From the NCBI RefSeq assembly GCF_037892605.1, contig NZ_JBBKTU010000001.1, positions 124,001-188,000 on the forward strand: a DNA stretch of 64,000 bases. Direction: 5' to 3'. Shown one piece after another: positions 6,765 to 38,964 of this stretch. Each line of letters opens with the position of its first letter. Position 1 is the stretch's first letter. The notes beneath the pieces were generated by a model. It worked only from the letters and a program-made list of their open reading frames with translations. It ran no database searches and was not told the origin of the DNA. The position numbers and the translations under genes were made by a program. This DNA is from Lacibacter sp. H407. GTDB lineage: Bacteria; Bacteroidota; Bacteroidia; Chitinophagales; Chitinophagaceae.

Positions 6765-8360
6765 TCAGCTTGTCAAAACAACAAACTCCTGTTCCAGCGA
6801 CAGCGAGTGTTGATACAAAGCATCGATAAACCCACTTCCCCACCTGGCATAAAGGCCGAGAAAACTTTCTTTCCGTTCCTGCAAACTTTTGCCGGGGAAG
6901 AGTTGCTGTTTAATGGTTTGTATCTGCCTTTGTTGATCAGCATATTTTCGTTTCTCCGCACGAAGTAATTTTTTTTCTAGTTCCTGTAACCGATACAGTG
7001 CTTTTGTTTTTAACGCTTCCACGTGTTGCGTTAATGTAGAATCAACAACAGCGGCTTTTTGTTTGAGCAGTTCATAGAACGCTTCCGCTTCAGAAAAACT
7101 ACCATTTAGTTTTACGGGGTTTGTTGTAATGCGGTGTACAAATTTGTTCAACAATTCATCTTCACTTGCAAAGAAATCAGTTGCTGTAAAACCAAGCTTC
7201 TGAATTTTATCGATCCATTGCTGTTCAGTAACTAAAAATGAATTACGTAACACCAAAACAGGGAAAGGAACTTTGTGATGTGAAAATACATTCTTCAACT
7301 CCAGCCAGTAAGCCAGTTCTCCTCCACCGCCAATAAATGCGATGTTGGGAAGAATGGTATCCTGGTATAAACCACGCAGAATTACATTGGGACTGAAACG
7401 CTCCGGATGTTCGTTCAACTCCTTCAGCATTTCATCTTTTGTAAACTTGATGGTTGTATTTGCAACTGCAAAACCATCTCCCTCTGCTTCTATCCTCTCA
7501 CGCAGGTCTTCATCAAAATAAAATAAGTTGATCTCTCTGCCTCCCGCCTGTACCTTGTAATGTTGCTCAAGTGCAACTGTTGTTTGATGAACGATCGCAG
7601 AAGATGAACGTTGCAATAACTCTTCTTCAAATACAGGGATCATTTGTTGCTTCAGTTCTTTTGCATCAGCGTTGATCACGATCAAACCAAAACGCTCAAA
7701 CAGAAAATGAACAAATGCAAATGTTGCATCCTGGATGGTTGTCTTTTCTTTATACGCTGCAAGCAATGCGTCGACGATTTCTTTCCCATGCGGCTGCACC
7801 AATAATTGTCCGCTGATGGCATGGATCAATTGTGTAATATTCTTATCAACAACCATGCGGCCAAAAGCACCGTTCTGTTTTGTTGCCCACTGATACTTTA
7901 CGCCGTTCACAGTTGCATGACTCAGCTCTTCAAAATCGGCATCTTCGCTACCCATGTAATACACCGGTACAAAATTATATTGTGTTAATTCCTGCTTTAA
8001 TGTGTCAGCGAGTTTTATTGCATGCAGGATCTTATAAATAAAATAAAGCGGACCGGTAAATAAATTGGGTTGATGAGCAGTAGTGATTGTGAATGTGTTT
8101 TCCTGCAACAATAATTCGATATGCTGATTTACTAACGCTGATGAAGGAACGTTTCTGTATTGGTTTTTCAAATGATCGACCAATACTTTACGATTGGTTG
8201 AAAACGATTTACGCTCCGCAATCGTCTGTTTAATACCATCCACAGTTGGCCTGTGCACATAGAACGGCTTCAATGCAACAGCATCATCTAAATAATCCAA
8301 TACAATGTTCGAAAAAGCAGCCGTGCTGCGGTAACTTAACCGCTGTGATGTACAGTCCAT
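6765..8360 (-). CDS. bshC: Bacillithiol biosynthesis cysteine-adding enzyme BshC
   Basis: Putative cysteine ligase that completes bacillithiol (GlcN-malate plus Cys). Length 531 matches the family. Recognisable features are the N-terminal segment ending in FSTNRKVLVDHL, the HxPN-type motif TITTAHQPNLFTGPLYFIYK (about residues 94-113), YYMGSEDADFEELSH, the GGGELAYWLELKNVF stretch, and a C-terminal coiled coil (about 445-505) that forms the dimer interface. It follows the propeller gene by 66 bp; TATTTTTA, close to the -7 consensus, sits 9 nt before its ATG, so it may have its own promoter. bshA and bshB are not in the window. Confidence 0.92.
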   Translation of the reverse strand: MDCTSQRLSYRSTAAFSNIVLDYLDDAVALKPFYVHRPTVDGIKQTIAERKSFSTNRKVLVDHLKNQYRNVPSSALVNQHIELLLQENTFTITTAHQPNLFTGPLYFIYKILHAIKLADTLKQELTQYNFVPVYYMGSEDADFEELSHATVNGVKYQWATKQNGAFGRMVVDKNITQLIHAISGQLLVQPHGKEIVDALLAAYKEKTTIQDATFAFVHFLFERFGLIVINADAKELKQQMIPVFEEELLQRSSSAIVHQTTVALEQHYKVQAGGREINLFYFDEDLRERIEAEGDGFAVANTTIKFTKDEMLKELNEHPERFSPNVILRGLYQDTILPNIAFIGGGGELAYWLELKNVFSHHKVPFPVLVLRNSFLVTEQQWIDKIQKLGFTATDFFASEDELLNKFVHRITTNPVKLNGSFSEAEAFYELLKQKAAVVDSTLTQHVEALKTKALYRLQELEKKLLRAEKRKYADQQRQIQTIKQQLFPGKSLQERKESFLGLYARWGSGFIDALYQHSLSLEQEFVVLTS

Positions 8361-8426
8361 ACGTTTTGTAAAAATAGCGACATTCTAACGGATGCATTCA
8401 ACCGCCTGAAAAGTTTTCACAATCCT

Positions 8427-9257
8427 TTATCGAAGCTCGTAAGCTACTACTGAATTTTTCCAGAAAGTAGGAATATATACGATTCGTTTCGCAGCATCAT
8501 AACCTATATCGGCTGAGTTTATTTTGTCTGCCCGTCCATCCAGTAATACCTGTTTGCTGCCATCGGCCGCAACATAATAAACCACACCTCCCCATGTTGA
8601 TACAAGAAAATCCCCGCCGCCAACGTTTTCAATACCATCTGTACCGCCTTCCATTCCTTCAGCCAGCTTCGTAAGCGACCCATCTTTTTCCATACGATAC
8701 ATACTGCCGGCATCCAACACATATAAATTACCCTTGTGTTTTAAAATGCCATTCGGCCCTTTTAGTTTTGAACTGTCGAGCAGCATTGATGCCTTACTGT
8801 CTTTTACTTCATACACACGTCTTGCACGTGAGTCGGTTACATAAACAGTTCCATTTTCATCGGCCGATACATCATTTAAACCCCCGGCACCTTCAACTGC
8901 TATCCGTTCAATTATAGTTCCAGTAGTTACGTCGATCACAACCAAGTCAGTAAGATCAGCAACGTATAATTTATTTTTGTACAACCCCATTCCTTTTGGT
9001 GCCTGCAATCCACTCACCCAATCAACTGCAATGATCTTTCCATCAAGCCCCACTTTTCCAATCGAACCTTTTCCATCATTCGCCCAAGGCTGTCCATCGA
9101 TATTAGCTACATACAACACTTTGTTCTTTCCATCAAACAAAACAGATTCCGGTACTTTTAAAAGTGTATCGGTTGACCATAATTTTACTAATTGATGTTG
9201 TGCTGATGCAACAGTAAATAAGATGACAGCAATTGAAAAAAGGAATATCTTTTTCAT
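8427..9257 (-). CDS. Secreted SMP-30/gluconolactonase-like beta-propeller protein
   Basis: A 276-residue exported protein: signal peptide MKKIFLFSIAVILFTVASAQ, then about six blade-like repeats (PESVLFDGKNKVLYVANI, VYVTDSRARRVYEV, LKGPNGILKHKGNLYVLD, GGTDGIENVGGGDFLVSTW). The pattern PxGM and NDVS fits the SMP-30/gluconolactonase/LRE-like superfamily or an NHL-type propeller; true lactonase metal ligands cannot be assigned with confidence. It is the seventh gene after gene 18654-19550 in a tightly spaced minus-strand run, 33 bp after the FAD oxidase. A role as periplasmic sugar lactonase (for example arabinonolactone) is attractive in this context but is inference. Confidence 0.7.
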   Translation of the reverse strand: MKKIFLFSIAVILFTVASAQHQLVKLWSTDTLLKVPESVLFDGKNKVLYVANIDGQPWANDGKGSIGKVGLDGKIIAVDWVSGLQAPKGMGLYKNKLYVADLTDLVVIDVTTGTIIERIAVEGAGGLNDVSADENGTVYVTDSRARRVYEVKDSKASMLLDSSKLKGPNGILKHKGNLYVLDAGSMYRMEKDGSLTKLAEGMEGGTDGIENVGGGDFLVSTWGGVVYYVAADGSKQVLLDGRADKINSADIGYDAAKRIVYIPTFWKNSVVAYELR

Positions 9258-9289
9258 TTTGTTGGTTGTTAATGAGAGATAACAGCAAA

Positions 9290-10534
9290 TTACGAAAATC
9301 GTTGAGGATCATAAGGTTTTAAATCAACGCTTGTTGACTGTTGATTGGCCAGTTCGGCCACCAGCTTACCGGTACCAGCACCTAAACTCAATCCAACCAT
9401 TGCATGACCGGTTGCAATGATCACATTCTTCTTTACACGACCGATATAGGGCATTCCGTCAGCTGAACAAGGGCGGTAGCCATACCAAATATCCTTTTCA
9501 GCAGGCATCGGTATTCTAAATTCTGGTAAATACCGTTCCACTGCATCCAGAATACCTGCTACCCTTTTCATGCGTGGAGGAGTATTGATTGATGTGATCT
9601 CCATCGTACCGCCAAAGCGGATCTTATTTCCATCCATTGGTGTAATAGCTACACGACCTTCCTGCAACACGGCTGGATAATTTAATTTAAATGGCGAATC
9701 TTCCAATGTAACCGAATAACCACGGCCAGGCATTAATGGTAAATTTAAACCAGCCATCGATGCAATTTCTCTCGACCATGAACCTGTAGCAATCACTACC
9801 AAGTCCGCATCATACTGTTGTTGTTTTGTTTTTACAGACCTGATTTGCTGACCATTCATTTCAAAACCGGTTACCTCTGCGTTTGAAAGTAACTGCACAC
9901 CAGATTGTTTTAAAATCGTCAGCAAGCCTTTCATCAACTTTTGCGGATACAGATGTGCATCACATTTAAAATATAACGCTCCCCGAATATTTAGTTGCAC
10001 CTGTGGCTCCATTGCCTGTACTTCTGCCGCAGATAACATCACTGCATCAAGACCTAACTTCTTTGCGTCTTCAACAGCGTGATGAGAATGTTCCTCTTTT
10101 TCTGTTGTTTGAAAATATTCCAATAAGCCTTTCTTTTCATAAGCAAAATCAAAATCAGGAATGTTTGCCCAGGTTTCATAACAATGCTGACTGAGAATCG
10201 CAATATCACGAAGCGGCACCGCTGATTCTTCAACATGTTTGACCGTTGCACTTTTCATAAACTTTAACCCCCATGAAATCAATGCAGCATTCAAACGTGG
10301 CTCCACATAAAACGGGCTTTTTGAATTCCACATCCATTTCAAACCCTGGGTTACAATACCGGGAGTTGCTAATGGTATAAAATGACTCGGACAAACATAG
10401 CCTGCGTTTCCATACGAACAGTTATCTGAGAAATCGCCTTTATCCAAAACGGTTACATCCCATCCGCTTTGTTGAAGATAGTAAGCTGAACTTAAACCAA
10501 TAATTCCACCGCCAACAACAATTGCTTTGCCCAT
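9290..10534 (-). CDS. FAD-dependent D-amino-acid dehydrogenase, probable cis-4-hydroxy-D-proline oxidase (LhpB-like)
   Basis: A 414-residue DadA-type oxidoreductase of the DAO family. The N-terminal Rossmann FAD motif is intact (AIVVGGGIIGLSSAYYLQQS), and the C-terminus has the family's GHAMVGLSLGAGTGKLVAE. Paired with the epimerase at 16030-17103, it would oxidise cis-4-hydroxy-D-proline to 1-pyrroline-4-hydroxy-2-carboxylate, the second step of hydroxyproline degradation. By sequence alone D-alanine or D-proline could also be the substrate; the neighbouring epimerase, deaminase and semialdehyde dehydrogenase genes decide for hydroxyproline. Starts 9 bp after the upstream GH gene. Confidence 0.82.
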   Translation of the reverse strand: MGKAIVVGGGIIGLSSAYYLQQSGWDVTVLDKGDFSDNCSYGNAGYVCPSHFIPLATPGIVTQGLKWMWNSKSPFYVEPRLNAALISWGLKFMKSATVKHVEESAVPLRDIAILSQHCYETWANIPDFDFAYEKKGLLEYFQTTEKEEHSHHAVEDAKKLGLDAVMLSAAEVQAMEPQVQLNIRGALYFKCDAHLYPQKLMKGLLTILKQSGVQLLSNAEVTGFEMNGQQIRSVKTKQQQYDADLVVIATGSWSREIASMAGLNLPLMPGRGYSVTLEDSPFKLNYPAVLQEGRVAITPMDGNKIRFGGTMEITSINTPPRMKRVAGILDAVERYLPEFRIPMPAEKDIWYGYRPCSADGMPYIGRVKKNVIIATGHAMVGLSLGAGTGKLVAELANQQSTSVDLKPYDPQRFS

Positions 10535-10543
10535 AATTTATTG

Positions 10544-12889
10544 TTACTCTTTTATAGTACGCACACCAAAAATACGGCCTGCCGTTTTACCATGATTCGC
10601 ATCGATCTTCACGGCGATCTTTGTTTTACCACTGATCATGGTTGGAGGCAGTTTGTATTCGACATCATAAAACTTTCCTGTTTTACCACCCTTCCATTCT
10701 TCGGTCACCAATTTTACACCGTCTATTAAAATATCAAACACACGGTCTTTATCATCACCAATATAAGTCAACAGTAACGAATTACTTGTTGATGCATCTA
10801 CTTTCATTTCAAACTCAAAGGAATTATTGCTTCTTGCTTCACGCCCCATACGATCCATGGCATCGCTTACATAAGAACGTTCTGTTGCTTTGAGGTTGTG
10901 ATCACGTTCAGGTTGCATTTCCCCAACACGGAAGTTATCAATCGTTCTGTTTTCAATTTCCTGAATACGCTTTTTCTCGGCTTCATAATCGGCTTGCAGC
11001 TTGGTAAATTCATCCGGTGTAAAATAATCCCAATACACACTGTAATACTGATCGTAGGTTTGATAGAACGGAATGAGTTTTACATCAAACAGCTTACCAA
11101 CTGATTTCATTTGAAATTGTAAAGACGAAGTTGACTGAACCCAATCATTCACATTACGATTTGAAGTTAACAACACCGGCACACCAATAACGGGATCGGG
11201 TTTTTCTTTTCCTAACAAACCGGCCAATACCAACGGACCATATTTGAATGCAATGCGGTTTGGATTATCGGGCATTGCTTCTGTATAAAGATTCATCTCC
11301 AAATCAACCGTTACAACATCGCCGGTTTTCCATAATCGTGTTGCAGTTAAATAACTGGCTGCATCTGTTTCTGTTTTTATTGCTGCATTGTTTACTTTAA
11401 TAACTTGTGTAGCATTGCTCCACGATGGTTTGCGAATTTTGAGTGTAAACGAAGTTGGTGTTGGAGTATTCACAACAAGCCTTATCTGTTTACTTTCAGG
11501 AATATAATTTGTTTGTGTGATGCGTATATTTTTTTCTTTCCAGTTTAATGTTGAAGGAATAAAAAGATTTACATAGAGATTATTCTTTCCATCGTAACTA
11601 TAGATCTGCTCCGCATACTTCGCATGATTTTCTATACCGCTGCCCACACAACAGGTGAATGTATTGAACTGATCGCTGAATTGTTTCTTTGTACCCATCC
11701 GCAGCGGAACAAAATAAGTCATCATGCCGTTCTCAGGATTTTGCGATGCAAGAATATGATTGTACAAAGCACGCTCGTAATAATCCATTAACTGTGCAGA
11801 AGGTTGCCAGGCAAATAAATGTCTTGTCAGCTTCAGCATATTGTACGTGTTGCACGTTTCACAGGTATTATCGCTTAAACGATCGTTGAGTTTACCTGCT
11901 TCGCCGCAATACTCGTAGTTACTGTTACCGCCAATAACATAGCTGTGGTTGTGCACCATGGTTTCCCAAAAGAAAGAAGCAATGGTTCGATCACTTTTAT
12001 TGCCTGTTAACTCATATTGTCTTGCACTGCCAATTGCTTTCGGCACATTGGTATTGCTGTGTTTGCCGGGTAACGGATCAATACGTTGTGCCAGTTTACC
12101 CATTACAAATTCATCATAAAATTTATAGGAAAGATCAAGATATTTTTTATTGCCGGTGAAGGAATAGATATTCGCCAGCACATCGTTCATGCCGCCATAT
12201 TCACAGTTCAACATTTTTAATCTTGTTGAATCGGGTAAATGATTCACGGTATTGTACGTCCAGTCAGCCATGCCTGTAACCAGTTTCAATGCTTTGTTGC
12301 TGTTGCAATACAAATAGGCATCGCACAAACCGGCCATTACTTTGTGCACGGTGTACCAGGGGCTCCATCCTCCGTTCAGATCAAAACCGGATGATTTAAT
12401 TTCTCCTTTCGCCACTTGACCAAAAATGGAATCTTCTTTTGGTATGGCGCCAATGTAACCGGTCTTGCGTGCAAGCTGACAACGTTCCAGTTCTGCAACG
12501 ATATAATCAACACGTTTTTTAAATTCAATATTTCCTGTTGACACGTACATCATCGATGCAGCCGAAAGATAATGCCCCAATGTATGACCTGATAACCCTA
12601 ATATCTCCCATCCGCCATACACAGAATCTTTCACAGGTAATCCTGCATTTTCATAAAAACGATACAACAACCGATCTGCACTCAACGATAGCAGGTAGGC
12701 ACTATCTAACTGCATGGCCTTTGCAAACGGGCTCTGCAACAGTTTCACATCACTCAACGGAAATGCAAATGCTTTTACAGGTACAACAGGTTGCACTTTT
12801 ACTTTTGTATTCTTCTTTTCAGGAATATACGATTGACTGTAAGAAAAGGTAATTGTAAAAAGAAAAACAGCAAAGAGAATTTGCTTCAT
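10544..12889 (-). CDS. Secreted GH127/GH146-type beta-L-arabinofuranosidase with C-terminal extension
   Basis: A 781-residue exported glycosidase (signal peptide MKQILFAVFLFTITFSYSQ). The catalytic (alpha/alpha)6 barrel of the DUF1680 superfamily runs to about residue 560. The zinc-thiolate site known from HypBA1 (one Glu and three Cys) is recognisable as CETCNT near residue 344 and TCCVGSG near 414. GH127 members more often read CCPAN at the second site, so this longer protein may belong to the sister family GH146. The C-terminal about 200 residues, containing an MDRMGREARSNNSFEFEMKV stretch, look like an accessory beta domain. It lies between the FAD oxidase and a GH5-like gene with gaps of about 9 bp each, so co-transcription is very likely. 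Confidence 0.85.
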   Translation of the reverse strand: MKQILFAVFLFTITFSYSQSYIPEKKNTKVKVQPVVPVKAFAFPLSDVKLLQSPFAKAMQLDSAYLLSLSADRLLYRFYENAGLPVKDSVYGGWEILGLSGHTLGHYLSAASMMYVSTGNIEFKKRVDYIVAELERCQLARKTGYIGAIPKEDSIFGQVAKGEIKSSGFDLNGGWSPWYTVHKVMAGLCDAYLYCNSNKALKLVTGMADWTYNTVNHLPDSTRLKMLNCEYGGMNDVLANIYSFTGNKKYLDLSYKFYDEFVMGKLAQRIDPLPGKHSNTNVPKAIGSARQYELTGNKSDRTIASFFWETMVHNHSYVIGGNSNYEYCGEAGKLNDRLSDNTCETCNTYNMLKLTRHLFAWQPSAQLMDYYERALYNHILASQNPENGMMTYFVPLRMGTKKQFSDQFNTFTCCVGSGIENHAKYAEQIYSYDGKNNLYVNLFIPSTLNWKEKNIRITQTNYIPESKQIRLVVNTPTPTSFTLKIRKPSWSNATQVIKVNNAAIKTETDAASYLTATRLWKTGDVVTVDLEMNLYTEAMPDNPNRIAFKYGPLVLAGLLGKEKPDPVIGVPVLLTSNRNVNDWVQSTSSLQFQMKSVGKLFDVKLIPFYQTYDQYYSVYWDYFTPDEFTKLQADYEAEKKRIQEIENRTIDNFRVGEMQPERDHNLKATERSYVSDAMDRMGREARSNNSFEFEMKVDASTSNSLLLTYIGDDKDRVFDILIDGVKLVTEEWKGGKTGKFYDVEYKLPPTMISGKTKIAVKIDANHGKTAGRIFGVRTIKE

Positions 12890-12898
12890 GCCTTATAA

Positions 12899-13957
12899 TT
12901 ATTTTTTTCCTGTTAAGGTTTTGATTGCTTCGATTTCTTTGGGATCATAAGCCGACCCATCTTTCCGAAATACATCATGGAACCAAAGTTTTGGTTCACT
13001 GCCATCCGGCATTGGTGTATCCCATTGATAAATGGTGTTGCTTTTACCAGCTACCAGTCCCCAATTGATAGCACTTACATTATACTTTTTAAAAATAGGC
13101 AAGTGTGTTTGAAACTTGCTGTTTCTTGTGCGGGCCATGTACTCACTGCAAATAACAGGTCGACCGAGTTTTAATTTTTCCTGCAGCTCTTTTTCAAGAT
13201 TATCCGCATCGTTATAGTTGTGAATACTGATCACATCAGAATGGCTTAACTGGTATTCATTTAATTCTTTATTGTTATACCAGGTTGCACAGGTGAGTGG
13301 TTGTGATGGACGAACTGCCCATGCCCATTCAAATACTTTTTTCAGCAGAGGCAAAGAAGTAAGATCGTATTTGCTGTTACCGGGCTCATTGTACAGATCC
13401 CACATTAAAATACGATCATCGTTTTTAAATGTGTTGAGAATATCTTTTACATACAGCTCAAGATAGTTCCATTGAGAAGAATCATTGTGCACATTCATAT
13501 TCGGGCTACGAACCCATCCGCTGTTATGAATACCCGGTTTTGGATCGGGTTGTTTACCAATAGCTGCATCTGGGTTCCAGCAATCATCAAAAATGGTAAA
13601 AAGAATTTTGATCTTGTGCTTTACTGCAATCTTTAGAAACTGATCCATTCGCTTTTTAAACCCCGCTGCATCTGCTTTCCAGGCAAGGTCATGCAAATAA
13701 ACACGCATTACATTCATGCCTATTGCTGAAGCCCAGCCCAACTCTTTATCGATCGTTGCAGGATCAAATGTTTCTGCTTGCCACATTTCCAGTTGATTGA
13801 TGGCAGTGCTGGGTAAAAAATTTGCACCCACAAGCCAACCTTGTTTTTGATACCAGGCATTTGCTTTTTCAACAGACCAGATATTTGTTTGCTGTGCTAC
13901 TATTTCATTTTGAAACAGAGACATTAAAACAGCAACAACAATGAATACTCTTTTCAT
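12899..13957 (-). CDS. Secreted GH5-like (clan GH-A) glycoside hydrolase
   Basis: A 352-residue exported TIM-barrel protein with signal peptide MKRVFIVVAVLMSLFQNEIVAQ. The clan GH-A acid/base is visible in LMWDLYNEPGNS (about residue 191) and the nucleophile in RPVICSEYMAR (about residue 271). Other family features are GANFLPSTAINQLEMW near the N-terminus, GMNVMRVYLHDLAW, and FTIFDDCWNP. Proteins of this kind are usually labelled 'cellulase family glycosylhydrolase' or '1,4-beta-xylanase' without assay. Position between two beta-L-arabinofuranosidases (gaps 9 and 4 bp) suggests it acts on the same glycan, perhaps an arabinose- or galactose-containing part of plant glycoproteins; that is inference. 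Confidence 0.8.
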   Translation of the reverse strand: MKRVFIVVAVLMSLFQNEIVAQQTNIWSVEKANAWYQKQGWLVGANFLPSTAINQLEMWQAETFDPATIDKELGWASAIGMNVMRVYLHDLAWKADAAGFKKRMDQFLKIAVKHKIKILFTIFDDCWNPDAAIGKQPDPKPGIHNSGWVRSPNMNVHNDSSQWNYLELYVKDILNTFKNDDRILMWDLYNEPGNSKYDLTSLPLLKKVFEWAWAVRPSQPLTCATWYNNKELNEYQLSHSDVISIHNYNDADNLEKELQEKLKLGRPVICSEYMARTRNSKFQTHLPIFKKYNVSAINWGLVAGKSNTIYQWDTPMPDGSEPKLWFHDVFRKDGSAYDPKEIEAIKTLTGKK

Positions 13958-13961
13958 GATC

Positions 13962-15929
13962 TTAATAATTAATTTTTACATCTTTAATACTTGTTGGCAA
14001 CCAAACCTGCATTTCATTTTTACCACGGTTGGCCCATGTGTAATAAGGAATAGCAATGATCTTTCGTTTTTCTGTACGGATAGACAAACCATCTTCTGCA
14101 ACAAGTACAACAGGTACTTCAGCCGTTAATGCTTTCACTGGTTCATCCATTATTTTATAATCGATCGTTTCAAACTTTGTATTGGGAGGCAGTACAATAT
14201 TCCATGCTTTGTTATTGTTATCTGCACCTTCAACACAATATACAATTGGTCCACGTTGAATGGCAATGCGGTTGTTATTTTGCTTCAAGGAATCTTTTGC
14301 AACAACAGTGTACGCATTCATTGCAAACTCCAGTTCCACAACTTCGCTTTGTTTCCATTCACGATCCACAGTCAGGTATCCATCTTTATTCACTACAGTA
14401 ACAGGCTTACCATTTACTGTAACTACAGGAGCTGAAGAAAAGTCTGCGCTTGCATTCTTATACAAATCACCGGGTACTGAACCATTGTTATACCAACCGG
14501 GAATACGGATATGTAATTTGAATTTCGATTTTTTCTGTTGTGGTGTAACAGCAATTTTCAATTTCCCATCCCATGGATAATTTGTTTCCATCTTTACATC
14601 CACTTTTGTTTTGGGCAACTGAATACTTGTATTGCTTCCAACAAACAGATTCACATAAATGCCATCGTTGCTTTTTGCATAAATATAATCACCGAGTGAT
14701 GCCACCATGCGTGCAATATTTGCCGGACAACAAGCCGTACCAAACCATTCTCTGCGTTGATGCTGTCCACGTGATGCAAGTGGATTACCGTAAAAAAAAC
14801 GATCGCCTGTTAAACTTAATCCATCCAATGCGCCATTGTATAAACTGCGTTCCAATACATCCATATACATTGCATTACCAGTGAGTGCATTCATACGCTG
14901 ATTCCAAAATACCATGCCGACACTTGCACATGTTTCACAATAGGCTTGCTCATTCGGCAGATCATAATCGTTGCTGAAACCTTCGTTACTTCCTGCAGAG
15001 CCAATACCACCGGTGATATACATGTTGCGATGCACCACATCTTCCCACACTTTTTTCATTGCACGCATATAATCTATATCACCTGTTTGTGCTGCCACAT
15101 CAGCAGCACCTGTATACATGTACATGGCACGTACTGCATGACCGGTGATTTGTGTTTGCTCTTTCACCGGAAGAATATCCTGTGCATAAGCTGTGTCTTT
15201 CCAATCGGTCCATGTATAACCTTTTGCTAAACGTTTGCCACGTTCGCTCAATAACCAATCGGCCAGCTTTAAATATTTTTCATTCTTAGTGGTCTTATAC
15301 AATTTCACTAATGCTAATTCTAACTCCTGGTGACCCGTTACCCAATGACGTTTACCCGGGCCAAACAATGCATCAAAATGATCGGCCCATTTGATACATA
15401 CATCTAAAAATTTACGCTTGCCTGTTGCATTGAAATAGGCAACTGCAGCTTCAATCATGTGGCCTGCATTGTAATCTTCATGCATGCTCATATCGGTATA
15501 ACGATCCTGTAAACCTTTCAACGTATACCAGGTATTGAGATAACCATCGGGTTGTTGTGCAGCAGCGATCTTATCAATCCATTCATCGCATTTCTTTTCC
15601 ATTTCTGCATTGGGATGCGTCTTTAATGAATACGCCATTGCTTCCAATGCTTTGAACACATCACTATCATCATAAAAAATGCCTTCGTGCTGTTCACCTT
15701 TGTTTCTTGCAACACGTTCAAAATTGCGGATGCGTGGCGTGGCTACTTCTGTTTGATAAATACAGGCAGCTAATGTTTTGGTAGCAACTTTATCAATCTT
15801 AGGTTTCCAGAATGCATCAGTCACATTCACCTGTGAGAAATTAATGAACTCAATTTTCTGAAAACTGTTTTGCGCAAACAGGTTTAATTGAAACAGACAA
15901 ACAAGCAAAAGGAGAAATACTTTTTTCAT
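13962..15929 (-). CDS. Secreted GH127 beta-L-arabinofuranosidase (HypBA1-like)
   Basis: A 655-residue protein, nearly the length of Bifidobacterium HypBA1, but with a signal peptide (MKKVFLLLLVCLFQLNLFAQ). HypBA1 hydrolyses terminal beta-L-arabinofuranose, including from hydroxyproline. Its Zn-thiolate catalytic site is matched by YCETCASVG near residue 332 and TACCPANIAR near residue 400, the first Cys of CC being the expected nucleophile. Other conserved stretches are MHEDYNAGHMIEAAVAYF and YITGGIGSAGSNEGF. Four bp separate it from the GH5-like gene and 100 bp from the upstream epimerase gene. The combination with hydroxyproline-degrading genes points to hydroxyproline-linked arabinosides of extensin as substrate. 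Confidence 0.9.
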   Translation of the reverse strand: MKKVFLLLLVCLFQLNLFAQNSFQKIEFINFSQVNVTDAFWKPKIDKVATKTLAACIYQTEVATPRIRNFERVARNKGEQHEGIFYDDSDVFKALEAMAYSLKTHPNAEMEKKCDEWIDKIAAAQQPDGYLNTWYTLKGLQDRYTDMSMHEDYNAGHMIEAAVAYFNATGKRKFLDVCIKWADHFDALFGPGKRHWVTGHQELELALVKLYKTTKNEKYLKLADWLLSERGKRLAKGYTWTDWKDTAYAQDILPVKEQTQITGHAVRAMYMYTGAADVAAQTGDIDYMRAMKKVWEDVVHRNMYITGGIGSAGSNEGFSNDYDLPNEQAYCETCASVGMVFWNQRMNALTGNAMYMDVLERSLYNGALDGLSLTGDRFFYGNPLASRGQHQRREWFGTACCPANIARMVASLGDYIYAKSNDGIYVNLFVGSNTSIQLPKTKVDVKMETNYPWDGKLKIAVTPQQKKSKFKLHIRIPGWYNNGSVPGDLYKNASADFSSAPVVTVNGKPVTVVNKDGYLTVDREWKQSEVVELEFAMNAYTVVAKDSLKQNNNRIAIQRGPIVYCVEGADNNNKAWNIVLPPNTKFETIDYKIMDEPVKALTAEVPVVLVAEDGLSIRTEKRKIIAIPYYTWANRGKNEMQVWLPTSIKDVKINY

Positions 15930-16029
15930 GTAACCAGCTATTGAAAACTTGTAAATAAATTATTGTTATGCGAAAACTCTGCTTTCCTGATTCTATCCTG
16001 CTCATCCCATAAATCCTATAAATCATGGT

Positions 16030-17103
16030 TCAGATAACCTGGAAGCCATAAGCATACGGATCATCGTCTTTATCAATGCTGATGGTATTGTAACCATAGA
16101 TCTTTGCCCAACCTTCAATACCGGGCCTGATAGCTTTCATACCATTCACTTCTAACTCTTCTTCAATGGTACCAATGAACTTACTGCCAATAATACTTTC
16201 GTGAATAAACTGATCGCCTTTTTTCAACTTCCCTTTTGCATACCATTGCGCCATGCGTGCAGAGGTGCCGGTACCACATGGACTACGGTCAATTGCTTTA
16301 TCACCATAGAATACTGCATTGCGTGCAGTAGATGTGGGATCGATCACAGAACCCGCCCATAAAATATGACTGCAGCCATTGATCGTTGCATCCTGTGGAT
16401 GAACGAATGTATATTTTGCATTGATATTCTTCCGCAATTCTCTTGCCCATGCAATTAATTTATCAGCAGCATAATGTTCAAGACCTTTAAAATTTTTCTG
16501 CACATCCACAATGGCATAAAAATTTCCACCATACGAAACATCTACAACCAACTCACCCAACTCAGGACATTCAACGGTTAATTCTGTTGAGTGTAAATAG
16601 GCAGGTACATTGGTGAGCTTTACACTTTTTACCTTGGCCTGAAGGCCAAGGCCAGTCATTTTGTATTCGATCATTACTAACCCAGCCGGTGCTTCCATAC
16701 GAATAACACCCGGTGTTTTCGGAACGATCAAACCTTCTTCCACTGCAATGGTAATGGTACCGATTGTTCCATGGCCGCACATCGGCAAACAACCACTTGT
16801 TTCAATGAACAATACGGCTACATCATTCTGCGGATCATGTGGTGGATAGAGAATACTTCCACTCATCATATCATGACCTCTTGGTTCAAACATTAATCCT
16901 TTGCGTATCCAATCATACTCTTTTAAAAAGTGCTGACGTTTTTCACTCATCGTATTTCCCTGCAATGCAGGACCACCTTCAGCGACTAAACGAACCGGGT
17001 TGCCGCAGGTATGTGCATCCACACAATGAAATACCCAACCACCAAAACGATAGAGTTCACTATTGGGATATTTCTTTATGATGGGTTGATCGATTCGGCT
17101 CAT
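16030..17103 (-). CDS. 4-hydroxyproline 2-epimerase (proline racemase family)
   Basis: Cytoplasmic, cofactor-free enzyme converting trans-4-hydroxy-L-proline to cis-4-hydroxy-D-proline, the first step of catabolism. The protein is 357 residues. Both acid/base cysteines are present: MCGHGTIG (about residue 106) and DRSPCGTGTSARMA (about residue 275). The Cys/Cys pair excludes the trans-3-hydroxyproline dehydratase subgroup, in which one of the two is replaced by Ser or Thr. Proline racemase is the alternative, but the three neighbouring catabolic enzymes make hydroxyproline the likely substrate. It is followed by the GH127 gene after 100 bp and preceded by the semialdehyde dehydrogenase (45 bp). 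Confidence 0.9.
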   Translation of the reverse strand: MSRIDQPIIKKYPNSELYRFGGWVFHCVDAHTCGNPVRLVAEGGPALQGNTMSEKRQHFLKEYDWIRKGLMFEPRGHDMMSGSILYPPHDPQNDVAVLFIETSGCLPMCGHGTIGTITIAVEEGLIVPKTPGVIRMEAPAGLVMIEYKMTGLGLQAKVKSVKLTNVPAYLHSTELTVECPELGELVVDVSYGGNFYAIVDVQKNFKGLEHYAADKLIAWARELRKNINAKYTFVHPQDATINGCSHILWAGSVIDPTSTARNAVFYGDKAIDRSPCGTGTSARMAQWYAKGKLKKGDQFIHESIIGSKFIGTIEEELEVNGMKAIRPGIEGWAKIYGYNTISIDKDDDPYAYGFQVI

Positions 17104-17148
17104 GATTTATCAATTCTTCGTTCAATATGTATTGAAACTTTATAAACT

Positions 17149-18636
17149 TTACTGAACAACATTTTTCGTCAGTTCGCTATTCACTCTTCTCCAAATCCCT
17201 AATGGATTTTCATTCTTCAATTCATCGGGTAATAATTCATTCTCCCAGTTTTGTAAAGAGATCGGTCGTGCAAAACGTTTAATGCCATCGGCACCAACAC
17301 TTGTAAAACGACTATCGGTTGTTGAAGGAAACGGACCGCCATGGTGCATACTCAAACAAACTTCTACACCGGTTGGCACACCATTCAAAATAAAACGTCC
17401 GCAAATATTTTTAACGGCTTCTATCAATTCTTCATTCTTCTTCAACTCATTTGTTGTTGCCATGAGTGTAGCCGTCAACTGTCCTTCCAGTTGTTGTGCA
17501 ACAGCCAGCATCTCTGCTTCATCTTTACAACGGATAATGAGTGAATACGGACCAAACACTTCTTGGTGCAACAACGGATTGTTTAAAAATGTTTCTGCAC
17601 TTGCAGTTGCAACAGTTGGCAAACCTTCATCTTCTTTCACAGCTGTTTCACTTTCTGCAACCAGGTGTACATCATCCTGCAACAATGCATTTCCTTTCTT
17701 CTCTTTGTATGCTTTTACAATACCTGCATGCAACATAGCAGCAGGTTGTGTTTTTTGTATTGCTTTCCCCAGATCATGCGTAAAGGTTTTCAACGCTTCA
17801 CTTTCAATTGCAATGATCAAACCGGGATTGGTGCAAAACTGTCCCACACCTAACGTAATTGAACCTGCATAGGCTGTTGCAATACCTGCTGCATCACTTG
17901 CCAATTTCTCCGGTAATAAAAACACAGGATTCACGCTGCCCATTTCTGCAAATACCGGAATCGGTTCTTTACGTTGATTGGCCCAATCGAATAATTGTTT
18001 ACCTCCACCATAAGAACCGGTGAAGCCAACTGCTTTTGTATGCGGATGTGTAACCAATGCTTTTCCTGTTTCAAACCCTGCACCATATACATGCGTAAAT
18101 ACACCCAATGGTAAATTATTAAATGCAGCTGCTTTAAAAATTGCATCTGCTACTATGTGCGATGTTTCGGGATGTGCAGGATGTGCTTTCACAATAACAG
18201 GACAACCCGCAGCCAATGCACATGCTGTATCACCACCTGCTGTTGAATACGCAAATGGAAAATTGCTTGAGCCAAACACTACAACGGGCCCCATTGGTAT
18301 CAGCATTTTTCTGATATCTGGTTTTGCCGGCACTTTATCAGGAATAGCTGTGTCAATACTTGCTTCAAGCCATTCGCCACGTTCGCATGCATCGGCATAA
18401 CTGTTCAATTGAAAAATAGTACGGCCACGTTCACCTCTTAATCTTGCTTCCGGTAAATTCGTTTCACGCATGGCAGTCTGAATGAGTGTATCGCCACAAT
18501 TCTCCAACTCAATGGCAATGGAACGCAAAAAGGCTGCACGTTCTTTCAAACTTTTTTTACGATAGATATGAAACGCTTTCCATGCTTCCTGCATGTAAGC
18601 ATCAATTTCATGTAACGGCGTATCTGCTAAATTCAT
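17149..18636 (-). CDS. 2,5-dioxopentanoate (2-oxoglutarate semialdehyde) dehydrogenase, NADP-type
   Basis: A 495-residue aldehyde dehydrogenase of the subgroup usually labelled 'aldehyde dehydrogenase (NADP+)'. The catalytic cysteine lies in GVGQFCTNPG (about residue 265) and the general base in PVFAEMGSVNPVF (about residue 230); VFGSSNFPFAYSTAGGDTA and the C-terminal MHHGGPFPSTTDSRFTSVG are characteristic of this subgroup. It would oxidise 2-oxoglutarate semialdehyde to 2-oxoglutarate, the last step of hydroxyproline breakdown and also the last step of oxidative L-arabinose breakdown. Gaps are 17 bp to the upstream DapA-family gene and 45 bp to the epimerase gene, consistent with one operon. 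Confidence 0.9.
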   Translation of the reverse strand: MNLADTPLHEIDAYMQEAWKAFHIYRKKSLKERAAFLRSIAIELENCGDTLIQTAMRETNLPEARLRGERGRTIFQLNSYADACERGEWLEASIDTAIPDKVPAKPDIRKMLIPMGPVVVFGSSNFPFAYSTAGGDTACALAAGCPVIVKAHPAHPETSHIVADAIFKAAAFNNLPLGVFTHVYGAGFETGKALVTHPHTKAVGFTGSYGGGKQLFDWANQRKEPIPVFAEMGSVNPVFLLPEKLASDAAGIATAYAGSITLGVGQFCTNPGLIIAIESEALKTFTHDLGKAIQKTQPAAMLHAGIVKAYKEKKGNALLQDDVHLVAESETAVKEDEGLPTVATASAETFLNNPLLHQEVFGPYSLIIRCKDEAEMLAVAQQLEGQLTATLMATTNELKKNEELIEAVKNICGRFILNGVPTGVEVCLSMHHGGPFPSTTDSRFTSVGADGIKRFARPISLQNWENELLPDELKNENPLGIWRRVNSELTKNVVQ

Positions 18637-18653
18637 GTTTGTTGTTTGATGGA

Positions 18654-19550
18654 TTATAAAACCGGTCGTGCTGCGAGTCCATCGTTAATAATTTTTAAAA
18701 TACGATCCCGTTCGCCGCCCTGTAAAGTTAAGCGTGGGGCACGAACATATTCGCTTCCAATTCCTGCTTGTGTGGCAGCGAGTTTAATATACTGCACGAG
18801 CTTGGGATGAATATCCAGTTCAAGCAATGGCATGAACCAACGATAGATGGCTGCTGCTTCGGCGATCTTACCTGTCTTTACCAAATTATAAATGGTTACG
18901 GTTTCTTTTGGGAAGCCGCAAACCAAACCTGCCACCCAGCCATCGGCTCCCAAACACAATTCTTCCACTGCCAATGTATCAACACCACAAAGAATTTTTA
19001 AACGTGTACCAAAACGATTGATCAATCGAGTAACATTGGTTACATCTCTTGTGCTTTCTTTCACAGCGGTGATGTTGCTGCACTCGATCAGTTCTTCAAA
19101 CATGTCAAGCGTAACATCAATCTTATAATCAACCGGGTTGTTATAGATCATGATCGGCAGGTCGGTTGACTTTGCAATGGTTTTAAAATATTCCACTGTT
19201 TCCCTGTCATCACTTTTGTATCGCATGGGTGGTAACAACATCAATCCTGCTGCTCCCCATGCTTTTGCATTGGCTGCCTGTTGCACTGCATCTTTCGTTG
19301 TGCTCTCTGCAATATTCATGATCACCGGAATTCTTCCGTTTAGGAATTTGATCGCATGTTTAATGAGCAATTCTTTTTCTTCAGCAGTAATGGTGCTGGC
19401 TTCGCCAAGTGAACCTCCAATGATCACACCATGCACGCCTGCGTCAAGTTGTGCCTGTAGATTCTTTTCAAACATTTGCAGATCAACTTCATCATTAGCG
19501 GTAAACGGTGTAAGTAAAGCGGGAAATACTCCTTTCCATTCAAATGACAT
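18654..19550 (-). CDS. DapA-family lyase, probable 1-pyrroline-4-hydroxy-2-carboxylate deaminase
   Basis: A 298-residue (beta/alpha)8 class I lyase. The Schiff-base lysine is in ITAVKEST (about residue 162) and the catalytic tyrosine in IMIYNNPVDY (about residue 135); the substrate loop reads GGSLGEAS instead of the GTTGE typical for true dihydrodipicolinate synthase, so it is not a lysine-biosynthetic enzyme. In this context it would deaminate and dehydrate pyrroline-4-hydroxy-2-carboxylate to 2-oxoglutarate semialdehyde. The related L-2-keto-3-deoxyarabonate dehydratase of oxidative arabinose catabolism yields the same product and cannot be excluded by eye. First gene of the minus-strand run; diverges from the AraC regulator. 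Confidence 0.85.
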   Translation of the reverse strand: MSFEWKGVFPALLTPFTANDEVDLQMFEKNLQAQLDAGVHGVIIGGSLGEASTITAEEKELLIKHAIKFLNGRIPVIMNIAESTTKDAVQQAANAKAWGAAGLMLLPPMRYKSDDRETVEYFKTIAKSTDLPIMIYNNPVDYKIDVTLDMFEELIECSNITAVKESTRDVTNVTRLINRFGTRLKILCGVDTLAVEELCLGADGWVAGLVCGFPKETVTIYNLVKTGKIAEAAAIYRWFMPLLELDIHPKLVQYIKLAATQAGIGSEYVRAPRLTLQGGERDRILKIINDGLAARPVL

Positions 19551-19621
19551 AGTATAAAATTTTAAACGAAAGTAACCGATGCCTGAATGAAAACAGAGGC
19601 GGTTCTTAACGGATTCTTTAC

Positions 19622-19638
19622 CGATATTAACTCGATAT
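19622..19638. promoter_or_regulatory. Candidate AraC-type operator: two CGATAT half-sites 11 bp apart
   Basis: CGATAT occurs at 19622-19627 and again at 19633-19638, one helical turn apart, in the 125-bp divergent region between the DapA-family gene and the AraC-family regulator. Direct repeats on one face of DNA are the usual target form for this regulator family. No other evidence supports binding. Confidence 0.35.
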
Positions 19639-19640
19639 AC

Positions 19641-19670
19641 TTGTATTTTTACAAAACAGGATAATATTTG
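19641..19670 (+). promoter_or_regulatory. Putative promoter of the AraC-type regulator gene
   Basis: TTG at 19641-19643 and TAATATTTG at 19662-19670, close to the Bacteroidota -33/-7 pair (TTG and TAnnTTTG, with one extra base inside the box). The ATG follows 5 nt after the box, so the transcript would have almost no leader. Confidence 0.35.
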
Positions 19671-19675
19671 CTAAA

Positions 19676-20554
19676 ATGAAGGTTGTACAGTTTACTATAC
19701 CGGTGGCAGGTGACAGTTCCATTGTGGTGCAGCACGAAGTGTTGCCGCATTTTTATGTACACCTGCACAGGCATCAGGAAATTCAGATCACCTGGATCAA
19801 AGAAGGAACAGGTACATTGGTCGCCGGTAATTACATGCAACCATTCTTGCCTGGTGATATTTATATACTCGGCGCCAATCAACCGCACCTGTTTAAAAGC
19901 GATCCTGTTTACTTTGATAAACGCAAGAAGAAAAAGGTAGAAGCACTGTCACTTTTCTTTAATCCTGCACAATTTTATGAAACTGTACTTGCATTGCCAG
20001 AAACAAAACCAATACGTCGCTTCATTGAACAGACAAACTCCGGGTTAAAAATTGCTGCTGCAGCAATCAAAAAGATTCTTGTGGAAATGCAACAGGTGCA
20101 GCAGGCAAAACAAGCGTATCGACTTTCCTATTTCATTCAGCTGTTGCAAACACTCAGCAACAGCAGAGGCAATCGGGTCCTTTCATCGGCATCAACTATT
20201 TACAGTATTTCCGATACCGAAGGCTTGCGTATGAATGATGTATATCGGTACACCATGGAACATTATACGGAGCACATCAGCCTTGAACAGATCGCTGCAG
20301 TTGCACATTTAACGGTGCAGGCTTTTTGTCGCTACTTTAAAAAACACACCCGCAAAACCTATATCAGTTTCCTGAACGAAATACGTATTAACGAAGCCTG
20401 CAAAAAAATGACAGGCAATACAGCAGTTGCTATTTCATCTGTAGCGTATGAATGTGGCTTCAGCAGTGCGGTAAGTTTTAACCGGGTGTTTAAACAGGTG
20501 ACTGGTGTTTCTCCTTCCCGATACATGGCCGATTACCGGGAGCAGGTAAACTGA
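19676..20554 (+). CDS. AraC-family transcriptional regulator
   Basis: A 292-residue regulator. The N-terminal half is a cupin-like ligand domain (HFYVHLHRHQEIQITWIKEG and FLPGDIYILGANQPHLF are the two cupin boxes). The C-terminal about 100 residues form the double helix-turn-helix: first HISLEQIAAVAHLTVQAFCRYFKKHT, second AISSVAYECGFSSAVSFNRVFKQ, ending in the usual GVSPSRYM. Two such sequences are quoted only to their recognisable parts. It is transcribed away from the hydroxyproline/arabinose gene run with a 125-bp shared control region, so local control of that run by hydroxyproline or arabinose is the obvious inference. Confidence 0.9.
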   Translation: MKVVQFTIPVAGDSSIVVQHEVLPHFYVHLHRHQEIQITWIKEGTGTLVAGNYMQPFLPGDIYILGANQPHLFKSDPVYFDKRKKKKVEALSLFFNPAQFYETVLALPETKPIRRFIEQTNSGLKIAAAAIKKILVEMQQVQQAKQAYRLSYFIQLLQTLSNSRGNRVLSSASTIYSISDTEGLRMNDVYRYTMEHYTEHISLEQIAAVAHLTVQAFCRYFKKHTRKTYISFLNEIRINEACKKMTGNTAVAISSVAYECGFSSAVSFNRVFKQVTGVSPSRYMADYREQVN

Positions 20555-20591
20555 CGGCCTTTCCGTATTTTCGCAGTAAGATTGTTTGCAC

Positions 20592-21872
20592 ATGGAAACC
20601 TACGGTAAAATTTTACTCATCGCCATGCCGGCTTTTCTATTGCTGGTGCTTGCCGAAGCCTGGTATGGTGTTTGGAAAGGAAAACAAACTGTCCGCAACC
20701 TGGATATGATCTCCAGTCTCAGCAGTGGCATTACCAATGTTACAAAAGATGTGTTGGGTTTAAGTATTGCCATTATCGGTTATGGTTGGCTGGCAGATAA
20801 ATTAGCGATCGTACATATTGAGAATACCATTCTTACTTACATCATTGCGTTTATAGCGCTCGACTTTGCCGGTTATTGGGTGCATCGTCTCGATCATGAA
20901 TATAATTTTTTCTGGAATGCACATATCATTCATCACAGCAGTGAAGATTTTAATCTGGCTTGCGCCTTGCGACAAAGTATCTCTGTTGTGTTCCGTCTCT
21001 TCACCATCTTTTTATTACCGGCTGCGTTGCTGGGTGTGCCAACTATGGTGATTGCTGTTGTTGCTCCACTGCATTTGTTTGCTCAGTTCTGGTATCATAC
21101 ACAACACATCAACAAGATGGGATTTCTGGAGAAGATCATTGTTACTCCTTCGCATCATCGTGTGCATCACGCTATCAATCCTGAGTATTTAGATAAGAAC
21201 TATGGACAGATATTCATCATCTGGGATAAACTCTTTGGGACGTATCAGGAAGAACTCCCTGACAAAAAACCTGTTTATGGTATTACAAGGCCGGTGCAAA
21301 CATGGAACCCGATCAAAATAAATTTCATGCATTTGGGTTTGTTGATTAAAGATGCATGGCTAACTAAAAGCTGGAACGATAAATTCCGCATTTGGATGAT
21401 GCCAACGGGTTGGCGGCCAGCAGATGTTGCAGAGAAATATCCGGTACACAAGATCAACGATGTGTACAACATGCAGAAGTACGATACCAAAGCTTCCACT
21501 TCATTACATGTATGGAGTTGGGTGCAGATCACCATGGCGTTGTTATTCATCAGTTATCTGTTTGGCAATATTGCATCCATCAACGCATTGAACGCTTATT
21601 ATATTTATATCTACGGCTTTTTCATCTTCCTAAGCGTTTATGCCTACACCGATCTGATGGATCGTAACAAATACGCCATCGTGTGGGAGATCATCAAGAA
21701 CAGTTTCGGCATTGCTATCATTTTACAAACCGGCGATTGGTTTGGCGCCGCAGCACTTAGCCCTGTACTTAAGTATATCATTGGCGCTTACTTTCTGCTC
21801 TCCACAATCGTTACGCTTTGGTTTGTGATGAAGCATGCAAAGGAAGATCAGCAGGTTATGATGGTGGCGTGA
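20592..21872 (+). CDS. Sterol desaturase / fatty acid hydroxylase superfamily membrane protein
   Basis: A 426-residue membrane di-iron enzyme. The start is placed at the ATG at 20592; a TTG two codons upstream is possible but unnecessary. The histidine clusters for the two irons are visible: HRLDHEYNFFWNAHIIHHSS (about residues 97-116) and HHRVHH (about 187-192), flanked by hydrophobic helices; the last about 110 residues carry four more membrane helices. The length and the C-terminal extra helices resemble alkylglycerol monooxygenase-like members more than short fatty-acid hydroxylases, but substrate cannot be read from sequence. The gene follows the AraC regulator by 37 bp and may share its transcript. 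Confidence 0.88.
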   Translation: METYGKILLIAMPAFLLLVLAEAWYGVWKGKQTVRNLDMISSLSSGITNVTKDVLGLSIAIIGYGWLADKLAIVHIENTILTYIIAFIALDFAGYWVHRLDHEYNFFWNAHIIHHSSEDFNLACALRQSISVVFRLFTIFLLPAALLGVPTMVIAVVAPLHLFAQFWYHTQHINKMGFLEKIIVTPSHHRVHHAINPEYLDKNYGQIFIIWDKLFGTYQEELPDKKPVYGITRPVQTWNPIKINFMHLGLLIKDAWLTKSWNDKFRIWMMPTGWRPADVAEKYPVHKINDVYNMQKYDTKASTSLHVWSWVQITMALLFISYLFGNIASINALNAYYIYIYGFFIFLSVYAYTDLMDRNKYAIVWEIIKNSFGIAIILQTGDWFGAAALSPVLKYIIGAYFLLSTIVTLWFVMKHAKEDQQVMMVA

Positions 21873-22458: not shown

Positions 22459-22920
22459 ATGCCAAATACCTACACCCAAATTCATTTACAATTTGTATTT
22501 GCTGTAAAATATCGAAAAGCACTCATTCTCCCCAATTGGAAAGAACGTCTTTACCAATATATCACGGGCATCATTCAACATAACGAACACAAAATGCTGC
22601 AGATAAACGGTATGCCTGATCATGTTCATCTCTTTATTGGCATGCGACCAACACAATCTGTTTCATCACTCATTCAAAATGTAAAAACAGAAAGTAGCAA
22701 ATGGGTCAATGATAACAGACTGTGTTCATCTCCGTTTGCATGGCAGGAAGGTTATGGCGCTTTCTCTTACTCTAAAAGCCATGTACCCGATGTTATCCGT
22801 TATATTCAAAATCAGGAAATACATCATCAAAAAGAAAGCTTTCTCGATGAATACCTGAAATTGTTGAAAGCTTTTGAAATTGAATATGATGAAAAGTATA
22901 TTTTTAAAGAACCGGAATAA
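22459..22920 (+). CDS. REP-associated tyrosine transposase (IS200-like TnpA, Y1/HUH)
   Basis: A 153-residue single-strand transposase of the IS200/RAYT superfamily. The metal-binding HUH motif is INGMPDHVHLFIGM (about residues 50-63) and the catalytic tyrosine is most likely the one in VIRYIQNQEIHH (about residue 115). The N-terminal YTQIHLQFVFAVKYRKALI is typical of the Bacteroidota members. No tnpB accompanies it, and the eight palindromes just upstream are the expected hairpin substrates. The gene is complete with no frameshift, so it may be active or domesticated. The next gene begins 18 bp later. Confidence 0.92.
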   Translation: MPNTYTQIHLQFVFAVKYRKALILPNWKERLYQYITGIIQHNEHKMLQINGMPDHVHLFIGMRPTQSVSSLIQNVKTESSKWVNDNRLCSSPFAWQEGYGAFSYSKSHVPDVIRYIQNQEIHHQKESFLDEYLKLLKAFEIEYDEKYIFKEPE

Positions 22921-38254: not shown

Positions 38255-38260
38255 GTTTTT

Positions 38261-38440
38261 TGATGGAATTGTGCAAGCACAATTTCTTTTTCTGTCACTT
38301 TTTGCTTGTCCAAAAAGTAACCAAAAAGGACCCCGAAAACCAATATACAGCCTGGTTTTCGGATAACGCCTTGATGTACTTTAGCACTACTGTAGTTAAT
38401 TACTTTGCTGCCAGCTTGAACATCCTATGTGCAACAGTTA
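38261..38440. repeat. Structured intergenic repeat, copy 1
   Basis: Shares about 175 bp with copy 2 (38965-39140). It contains three hairpins in a row: AATTGTGC/GCACAATT (38267-38284), CTTTTTG/CAAAAAG (38298-38317) and CCGAAAACCA/TGGTTTTCGG (38333-38362). The stems are unchanged in copy 2 while loops differ. Lies directly upstream of the minus-strand gene 37721-38254. It keeps an open frame on the plus strand without a plausible start. Confidence 0.8.
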
Positions 38441-38498
38441 TATTTCTATTTAGCCATATTGTTTTGCCCATTGCGTATCAGCTATTGCCTATTGCCTT

Positions 38499-38942: not shown

Positions 38943-38964
38943 TTCTATATTTTTAATTTTTAAG

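Follow-up and report, generated by a model that had tools for sequence, protein, structure and literature searches.

Why should genes for the catabolism of hydroxyproline (Hyp) enclose genes for beta-L-arabinofuranosidases? This question is raised by a locus in a 64,000-nucleotide stretch of the Lacibacter sp. H407 genome (contig NZ_JBBKTU010000001.1, positions 124,001 to 188,000; the whole stretch is called the window here, and positions are those of the window). Analysis of open reading frames (ORFs) and of Pfam and NCBIfam matches reveals a run of eight minus-strand genes, from 19550 down to 8427, with intergenic gaps of 4-100 bp. From the head, these encode a DapA-family lyase, an aldehyde dehydrogenase (ALDH), a 4-hydroxyproline 2-epimerase (HypE), a member of glycoside hydrolase (GH) family 127, a GH5-like enzyme, a GH146 enzyme, a DadA-type FAD oxidase and an SMP-30/arylesterase-like (SGL-like) protein, so that three GH genes sit between HypE and DadA on one strand. 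An earlier note on this DNA had described the genes at this place and on this strand, with the same gaps and with an AraC regulator diverging from the head, and our analysis bears out this layout. We consider it probable that the locus serves the use of Hyp-linked beta-L-arabinosides of extensin-type glycoproteins, of plants or green algae, with consumption of both the sugar and the aglycone.

The GH127-type catalytic domain PF07944 is found twice in the run, with 404 and 344 bits against a cut-off of 24.9, and the two GH127/GH146-type enzymes recognized earlier can be refined to one of each family. The protein encoded at 13962-15929 (655 residues) contains PF07944 (344 bits), PF20736 (83 bits) and PF20737 (87 bits), which correspond to the catalytic, middle and C-terminal domains of GH127. 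Among solved chains it scores 541 bits to 6ex6, 342 to HypBA1 and 47 to 5opj, and its nearest chains include the GH127 entries 4qjy and 3wkw. Counted by eye along the printed alignment, it keeps the acid/base glutamate and zinc ligands of HypBA1 (E322, E338, C340 and the CC pair), and also H142, Y145, H194, H270 and R273. Its sequence identifies this protein as a GH127 member and a predicted beta-L-arabinofuranosidase. An aceric acid hydrolase was tried as an alternative assignment for the gene and rejected, the score of 437 bits being far under the cut-off (950).

The second protein, encoded at 10544-12889 (781 residues), contains PF07944, PF20736 and PF20620, with a DUF6805 tail, and scores 497 bits to 5opj, which we take to be BT0349, and 31 bits to HypBA1. 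Its scores to BT0349 and Bll3HypBA1 (497 and 235 bits) compare with 30-69 bits for GH127-type chains, and its ETC and CC zinc-ligand motifs align with those of 5opj. By sequence similarity, it is assigned as a GH146 beta-L-arabinofuranosidase. According to passages of PMC6085000 and PMC10850190, GH127 HypBA1 acts on Ara1-3-Hyp and beta-arabinobiose, and the GH146 enzymes XeHypBA1 and Bll4HypBA1 act on Araf-beta1-Hyp (Araf, arabinofuranose). The characterised specificities of these three enzymes make a GH127 and GH146 pair beside HypE chemically coherent, and they support the earlier proposal that arabinose is removed first and Hyp consumed afterwards. Analogy with the characterised enzymes suggests extensin as the natural substrate.

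The epimerase gene (16030-17103) encodes the best-defined enzyme of the Hyp pathway in the run. HypE matches NF010578 with 578.8 bits against a cut-off of 376, contains PF05544, and has both catalytic cysteines, in the motifs MCGHG and DRSPCGTG, as the earlier note had observed. A Cys-pair rule given in a passage of PMC4364671 separates the racemase/epimerase type from the dehydratase type; as HypE keeps both cysteines, it belongs to the former and the latter is excluded. It is the single match in its own 4.87 Mb genome. The trans-4-hydroxyproline pathway consists of HypE, a D-Hyp dehydrogenase, a pyrroline-4-hydroxy-2-carboxylate (Pyr4H2C) deaminase and a 2-oxoglutarate semialdehyde dehydrogenase (KGSADH), and the earlier claim that all of it is encoded here is backed by a curated model for HypE; the other three enzymes are predicted from superfamily and context. 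The DapA-family lyase (18654-19550; PF00701, 205 bits) has its lysine in the context AVKEST and matches no specific NCBIfam model at cut-off, so its reaction is assigned from context. The ALDH (17149-18636; PF00171, 154 bits) has 3v4c (429 bits) and 1eyy (411 bits) as its closest solved relatives and its Cys and Glu in the contexts GQFCTNPG and AEMGSVNP; the context predicts 2-oxoglutarate semialdehyde as its substrate. The DadA-type oxidase (9290-10534; PF01266, 249 bits), a predicted cis-4-hydroxy-D-proline dehydrogenase, scores 247 bits to the D-amino acid dehydrogenase model NF001933, below its cut-off of 383. These three assignments are right at the superfamily level, and the pathway roles are predicted from the gene context.

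Is the proximity of the two gene sets more than chance? The earlier note had named conservation of the neighbourhood as one test that could refute its reading, and the reading withstood this test. We used 396 genomes sampled evenly from the class, taken to be Bacteroidia; 50 have an epimerase match and 48 a match above 550 bits, and together with relatives this gave 62 HypE genomes. PF07944 genes were counted at E up to 1e-20, leaving out 10 weaker rows, and HypE above 550 bits, leaving out matches of 208-253 bits (G241, G317 and second copies in G268, G334, G394 and G237). In 17 of the 62 genomes, HypE has a PF07944 gene at a distance of at most 10 kb, where 0.55 is expected from gene number and genome size with gene places treated as random and contig ends ignored (P ~1e-21). 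Collapsed to genera, the link is present in 8 of 34 against 0.54 expected (P ~1e-8), and it is seen in 11 of the 48 genomes of the even sample alone. As a control, proline dehydrogenase (Pro_dh) genes were located in 36 of the 62 genomes. These were chosen by hand among the 44 that carry at least one PF07944 gene, and all 17 linked genomes are in the set; none of the 36 Pro_dh genes has a PF07944 gene within 10 kb. The link between HypE and GH127/GH146 is not accidental.

The linkage can also be resolved by the type of GH146. Of 15 proteins with at least 50% identity to the window GH146 (window-type), 11 are encoded no more than 10 kb from HypE; among the other GH146-like rows the figure is 2 of 38 (Fisher 1e-6). 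These counts and the 9 of 10 given below were read by hand from match tables. Five of the 11 linked copies come from the genus of the window; counted by genus, a linked copy is present in 7 of 8. One of the four unlinked copies lies on a 12-kb contig. Ten of the 396 evenly sampled genomes, the own genome included, have a window-type GH146, and 9 of these 10 have HypE compared with 48 of the 396 (Fisher 2.5e-8); leaving out the own genome, the figure is 8 of 9. A further genome, G246, combines HypE with a 45% match to the window GH146.

At closer range, 59 genomes were searched, the own genome included, and HypE was found at E up to 1e-60 in 18. The genus is represented by 14 genomes; nine have HypE, and in five, that of the window among them, GH127 and GH146 separate HypE from DadA. 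The GH5-like gene is absent from the loci of the other four GH-bearing congeners. In the far relative L066 the order is HypE, PF06964 alpha-arabinofuranosidase, GH127, GH5, GH146 and DadA. Because L066 also has a GH5 gene between GH127 and GH146, the gene order of the window is probably old, with the GH5-like gene lost in the congeners. A separate feature of the congeners' Hyp clusters is a gene for a Sortilin/BNR beta-propeller protein of some 770 residues, which mostly lies directly before HypE (L019, L020, L021, L023, L024, L025 and L026) and is not found in the window run.

The two GH families appear to differ in their history. Trees were built from the available long linked proteins together with some of the unlinked ones (21 and 12 rows), which biases the proportions towards linked proteins. 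The GH146 tree has a clade of 25 rows including the window protein (SH-aLRT 98), with 22 linked to HypE and three unlinked, and a separate clade with 13 unlinked and one linked; L098, L103 and L135, which are also linked, form a long branch apart from the GH146 clade. For GH127, the tree places linked proteins in a 14-row clade (12 linked) and in two other groups that also contain unlinked ones. Within the limits of this biased sampling, it is probably mainly one GH146 subfamily that accompanies Hyp catabolism, and the spread of linked GH127 proteins over several groups suggests that GH127 partners were probably acquired more than once.

How far the arrangement extends was followed in 96 loci, made up of the best 80 of 594 confirmed epimerase candidates and 17 from relatives, with one duplicate removed; loci cut by contig ends, of which there are many, count as without the gene. 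A DadA-type gene is present in 82, DapA in 76 and ALDH in 70, and all three accompany HypE in 61. A GH127/GH146 gene is present in 28, a number that rises to 32 with GH5-like genes included, when GH127/GH146 matches below 39% identity are not counted (this drops L098 and L103). The interleaving reported in the earlier note recurs: 16 of the 96 have a GH gene between HypE and DadA, which is GH127/GH146 in 12 and only GH5-like in four, and 31 of 39 GH127/GH146 genes share the orientation of HypE. Recurrent best BLAST matches in these loci are to DUF885 (21), S9 (9) and M24 (8) proteins, some of the peptidase queries having come from the same 96 loci.

Forty neighbour proteins, hand-picked for a Pfam scan, provide examples rather than counts of further parts. 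SusC/SusD genes lie near HypE in L088, L039, L046, L104, L098 and L048, an amino-acid permease in the clusters of L048 and L104, GH43 in L031 and L039, and a PF06964 alpha-arabinofuranosidase, presumably of GH51 type, in L066 and L072. GH95 is found in L061, a Melibiase-type (alpha-galactosidase-like) enzyme in L064, and an M1 peptidase with GH97 in L113; DPP4-type S9 and aminopeptidase-P-type M24 peptidases occur in the clusters of single relatives. Other scanned neighbours are unrelated, for example FUSC, HlyD/ABC, DAGK and patatin proteins. Two loci are especially full: Flavihumibacter profundi (L039) has SusC/SusD, DUF885, DapA, ALDH, DadA, HypE, GH146 and GH43, and Mucilaginibacter kameinonensis (L088) has GH127, GH146, SusC/SusD, DapA, HypE, DadA, AraC, DUF885 and ALDH. 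The alpha-galactosidase-like enzyme, PF06964, proline-type peptidases and the permease are spread over the loci, and none of the loci read has them all. The alpha-galactosidase-like enzyme of relatives could remove Ser-linked galactose. At 8644-10613 of L072, the GH127 gene lies in two overlapping frames, either a pseudogene or an assembly error.

From these parts, a route can be proposed. Glycopeptides or Ara(n)-Hyp fragments would reach the periplasm, where GH127 would trim beta1,2-linked arabinose, GH146 would take the last arabinose off Hyp, and the GH5-like enzyme may act on some further sugar. A peptidase from outside the run would free Hyp, which would then enter the cytoplasm. There HypE would convert it to cis-4-hydroxy-D-proline, the DadA-type enzyme would oxidise this product, the DapA-type enzyme would deaminate to 2-oxoglutarate semialdehyde, and the ALDH would yield 2-oxoglutarate. 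Released arabinose may follow the isomerase route, and AraC may respond to one of the products; the isomerase AraA is present in the own genome. By a simple hydropathy count rather than a signal-peptide predictor, the GH127, GH146, GH5-like and SGL-like proteins have a signal-like hydrophobic start (11-residue mean 2.7-3.2) and HypE, ALDH and DapA have none (at most 1.5); the value of 2.35 for DadA fits a nucleotide-binding start.

Several observations weigh against this reading of the locus. Without any PF07944 gene within 10 kb are 45 of the 62 HypE genomes, and four of the nine HypE-bearing congeners (G004, G009, G012 and G013) have the Hyp genes without GHs. In the even sample only 5 of the 10 window-type GH146 genes lie within 10 kb of HypE: those of G034, G299 and G428 are not near it, that of G162 is on the 12-kb contig, and G298 has no HypE. 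No gene of the run other than HypE exceeds a curated NCBIfam cut-off, the GH5-like enzyme has no assigned role, and the ORFs and Pfam matches of the run include no peptidase, GH121, alpha-arabinofuranosidase or, as had been noted earlier, transporter. Members of GH127 and GH146 also act on arabinan, rhamnogalacturonan II and arabinogalactan-protein (AGP) sugars, and the GH146 enzyme BT0349 is placed in a rhamnogalacturonan I locus (passages of PMC10850190). The last point, the patchy presence of GHs among close congeners and the many HypE genomes without PF07944 nearby would all suit two independent functions side by side: a Hyp operon that deals with free Hyp, released for instance from collagen or in protein turnover, and, inserted into it, genes that trim arabinose from pectin or AGP, with no substrate in common. 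We regard this as unlikely in view of the recurrence of the link far above expectation at the genus level, and of the specific GH146 group that is linked to HypE and is mostly confined to HypE genomes.

The DapA and ALDH families also occur in the oxidative L-arabinose pathway, and the locus could be imagined as an arabinose locus in which these two enzymes serve breakdown via 2-keto-3-deoxy-arabonate to 2-oxoglutarate semialdehyde. The SGL/arylesterase-like protein at the end of the run would fit, but DapA, ALDH, HypE and DadA occur together without GH127, GH146 or GH5, for example in L028, L060 and L070, and no arabinose dehydrogenase or arabonate dehydratase was identified among the run genes by Pfam and NCBIfam. 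With HypE above its curated cut-off and AraA in the genome, we set this explanation aside as highly improbable. Returning to Hyp-linked arabinosides as the substrate, their source may be considered separately. Hyp-arabinosides occur in volvocine walls and CLE-type peptides, and it is possible, if rather doubtful, that green-algal walls or small arabinosylated peptides are the target rather than land-plant extensin. The GH-bearing L061, L066 and L095 carry sample codes that resemble, by look only, those of water samples, whereas there are also named isolates among the carriers, Flavihumibacter solisilvae (L046) being one.

Entry of the substrate was considered through transporters. The window run has no SusC/SusD pair, and GH121 and ABC transporters are absent among ten proteins scanned from the run and its flanks; no search for GH121 was made elsewhere in the genome. 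The own genome has 15 SusD-like matches, six above 100 bits, and the L088 SusD query finds five matches at 27-31% identity; with none closer than 31%, none could be recognized as a matching importer. The minus-strand stretch 52033-57262, some 33 kb away from the Hyp genes, holds a 592-residue ORF with a weak SusD-like PF12771 match under cut-off (19.9 bits; G000:C1:177233-177511) and, beside it, a 1146-residue ORF that may be a SusC partner.

The GH5-like protein (12899-13957) has a weak match to PF02836 (35 bits) and no PDB sequence match at E up to 0.01. Its AlphaFold2 model (pLDDT 73) matches GH5_18 and GH5 mannanases at low identity, with E down to 2.8e-8 and a TM-score of about 0.5, mainly to mannosidase, mannanase and glucuronidase types, and E191 (in NEP) and E272 (in EY) are invariant in 9 of 9 sequences. 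The model suggests a TIM barrel, and the two invariant glutamates are candidate catalytic residues. The gene at 8427-9257, which ends the run and lies within the range of the earlier note without being mentioned there, encodes the SGL-like protein (PF01731, 31 bits; PF08450, 24.7 bits) and adjoins DadA in 8 of 8 genus loci read. On the opposite strand, the AraC-family gene (19676-20554; PF12833 (HTH_18) and PF02311), predicted to control the run, starts 125 bp from the run head; an AraC gene diverges from DapA in 24 of 97 loci.

Within the run, the gaps measure 17 bp (DapA-ALDH), 45 bp (ALDH-HypE), 100 bp (HypE-GH127), 4 bp (GH127-GH5), 9 bp (GH5-GH146), 9 bp (GH146-DadA) and 32 bp (DadA-SGL), and a BshC gene lies 66 bp beyond its end. 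Scans of 8300-20700 gave 29 promoter matches against 35.5 in shuffles and 11 terminator matches against 10.0, without excess; the pattern TTTG/TANNTTTG, which we take to be a Bacteroidota-type promoter, has no match near the run and two in the window against 5.5 expected. With no excess in any of the three scans, they do not place the limits of the operon. Rfam gave no match at gathering threshold in the whole window, including 38254-41172, a stretch of short ORFs in which none that lies fully inside exceeds 148 residues. A 153-residue ORF at 22459-22920 (plus strand), looks like an IS200/REP-type transposase; an ORF of the same length lies at a similar place in the congener L019. The fatty-acid-hydroxylase-type gene (20586-21872) and bshC (6765-8360) accompany the Hyp cluster in many relatives; the former lies inside the cluster, on the opposite strand, in L033, L047, L066 and L074.

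No paper joining GH127 or GH146 with Hyp catabolism was found in the open-licence literature (titles, abstract starts and passages); subscription papers lay outside this coverage, and priority is not claimed. We know of no glycoside hydrolases in the Proteobacterial trans-4-hydroxyproline operon. That operon has the same four enzyme classes as the run (related passages in PMC4364671), and the passages of a neighbourhood study of the epimerase superfamily mention neither glycoside nor arabin (PMC4113996). The HypBA1/HypBA2/HypAA cluster of Bifidobacterium longum (BauR regulon) resembles the locus in its GH127 and in the GH146 at other loci of the strain, beta-L-arabinofuranosidases that there serve for Hyp-linked arabinosides. 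However, it has an ABC transporter and a LacI regulator in place of AraC, the window run lacks GH121, and Hyp catabolic genes are not mentioned in the passages concerned (PMC10850190, PMC5928203). In Xanthomonas euvesicatoria, XeHypBA1, a GH146 enzyme according to a passage of PMC10850190, mainly cleaves Araf-Hyp, and a prolyl oligopeptidase gene, reported broken, adjoins xehypAA; unlike the locus, no Hyp pathway is mentioned, and L-arabinose is stated not to serve this bacterium as a carbon source (passages of PMC6085000). Use of extensin through GH127 has been proposed in silico for Latescibacteria (a passage of PMC4454575). As far as these passages go, the arabinose-directed systems of Bifidobacterium and Xanthomonas and the Latescibacteria proposal are the nearest published. 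Polysaccharide utilisation loci of Bacteroides are approached by the relatives L039, L046, L088 and L104, with SusC/SusD beside GH and Hyp genes; the run differs in having no SusC/SusD and in being predicted to digest the amino-acid aglycone too.

In the literature passages, bacterial systems stop at arabinose, and a locus that takes both sugar and aglycone would go further. In the walls of plants and green algae, hydroxyproline-rich glycoproteins count among the major proteins. We lean towards the view that the locus represents a class in Bacteroidota which consumes the whole glycoprotein linkage unit, arabinosides together with the Hyp aglycone, and which was assembled repeatedly from different GH127 lineages to feed on plant or algal wall glycoproteins. 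If so, such loci would provide a genetic marker for the turnover of extensin-type glycoproteins, would yield glycosidases, peptidases and transporters specific for Hyp, and would offer a directly testable case of an amino-acid catabolic operon fused with a glycan utilisation locus.

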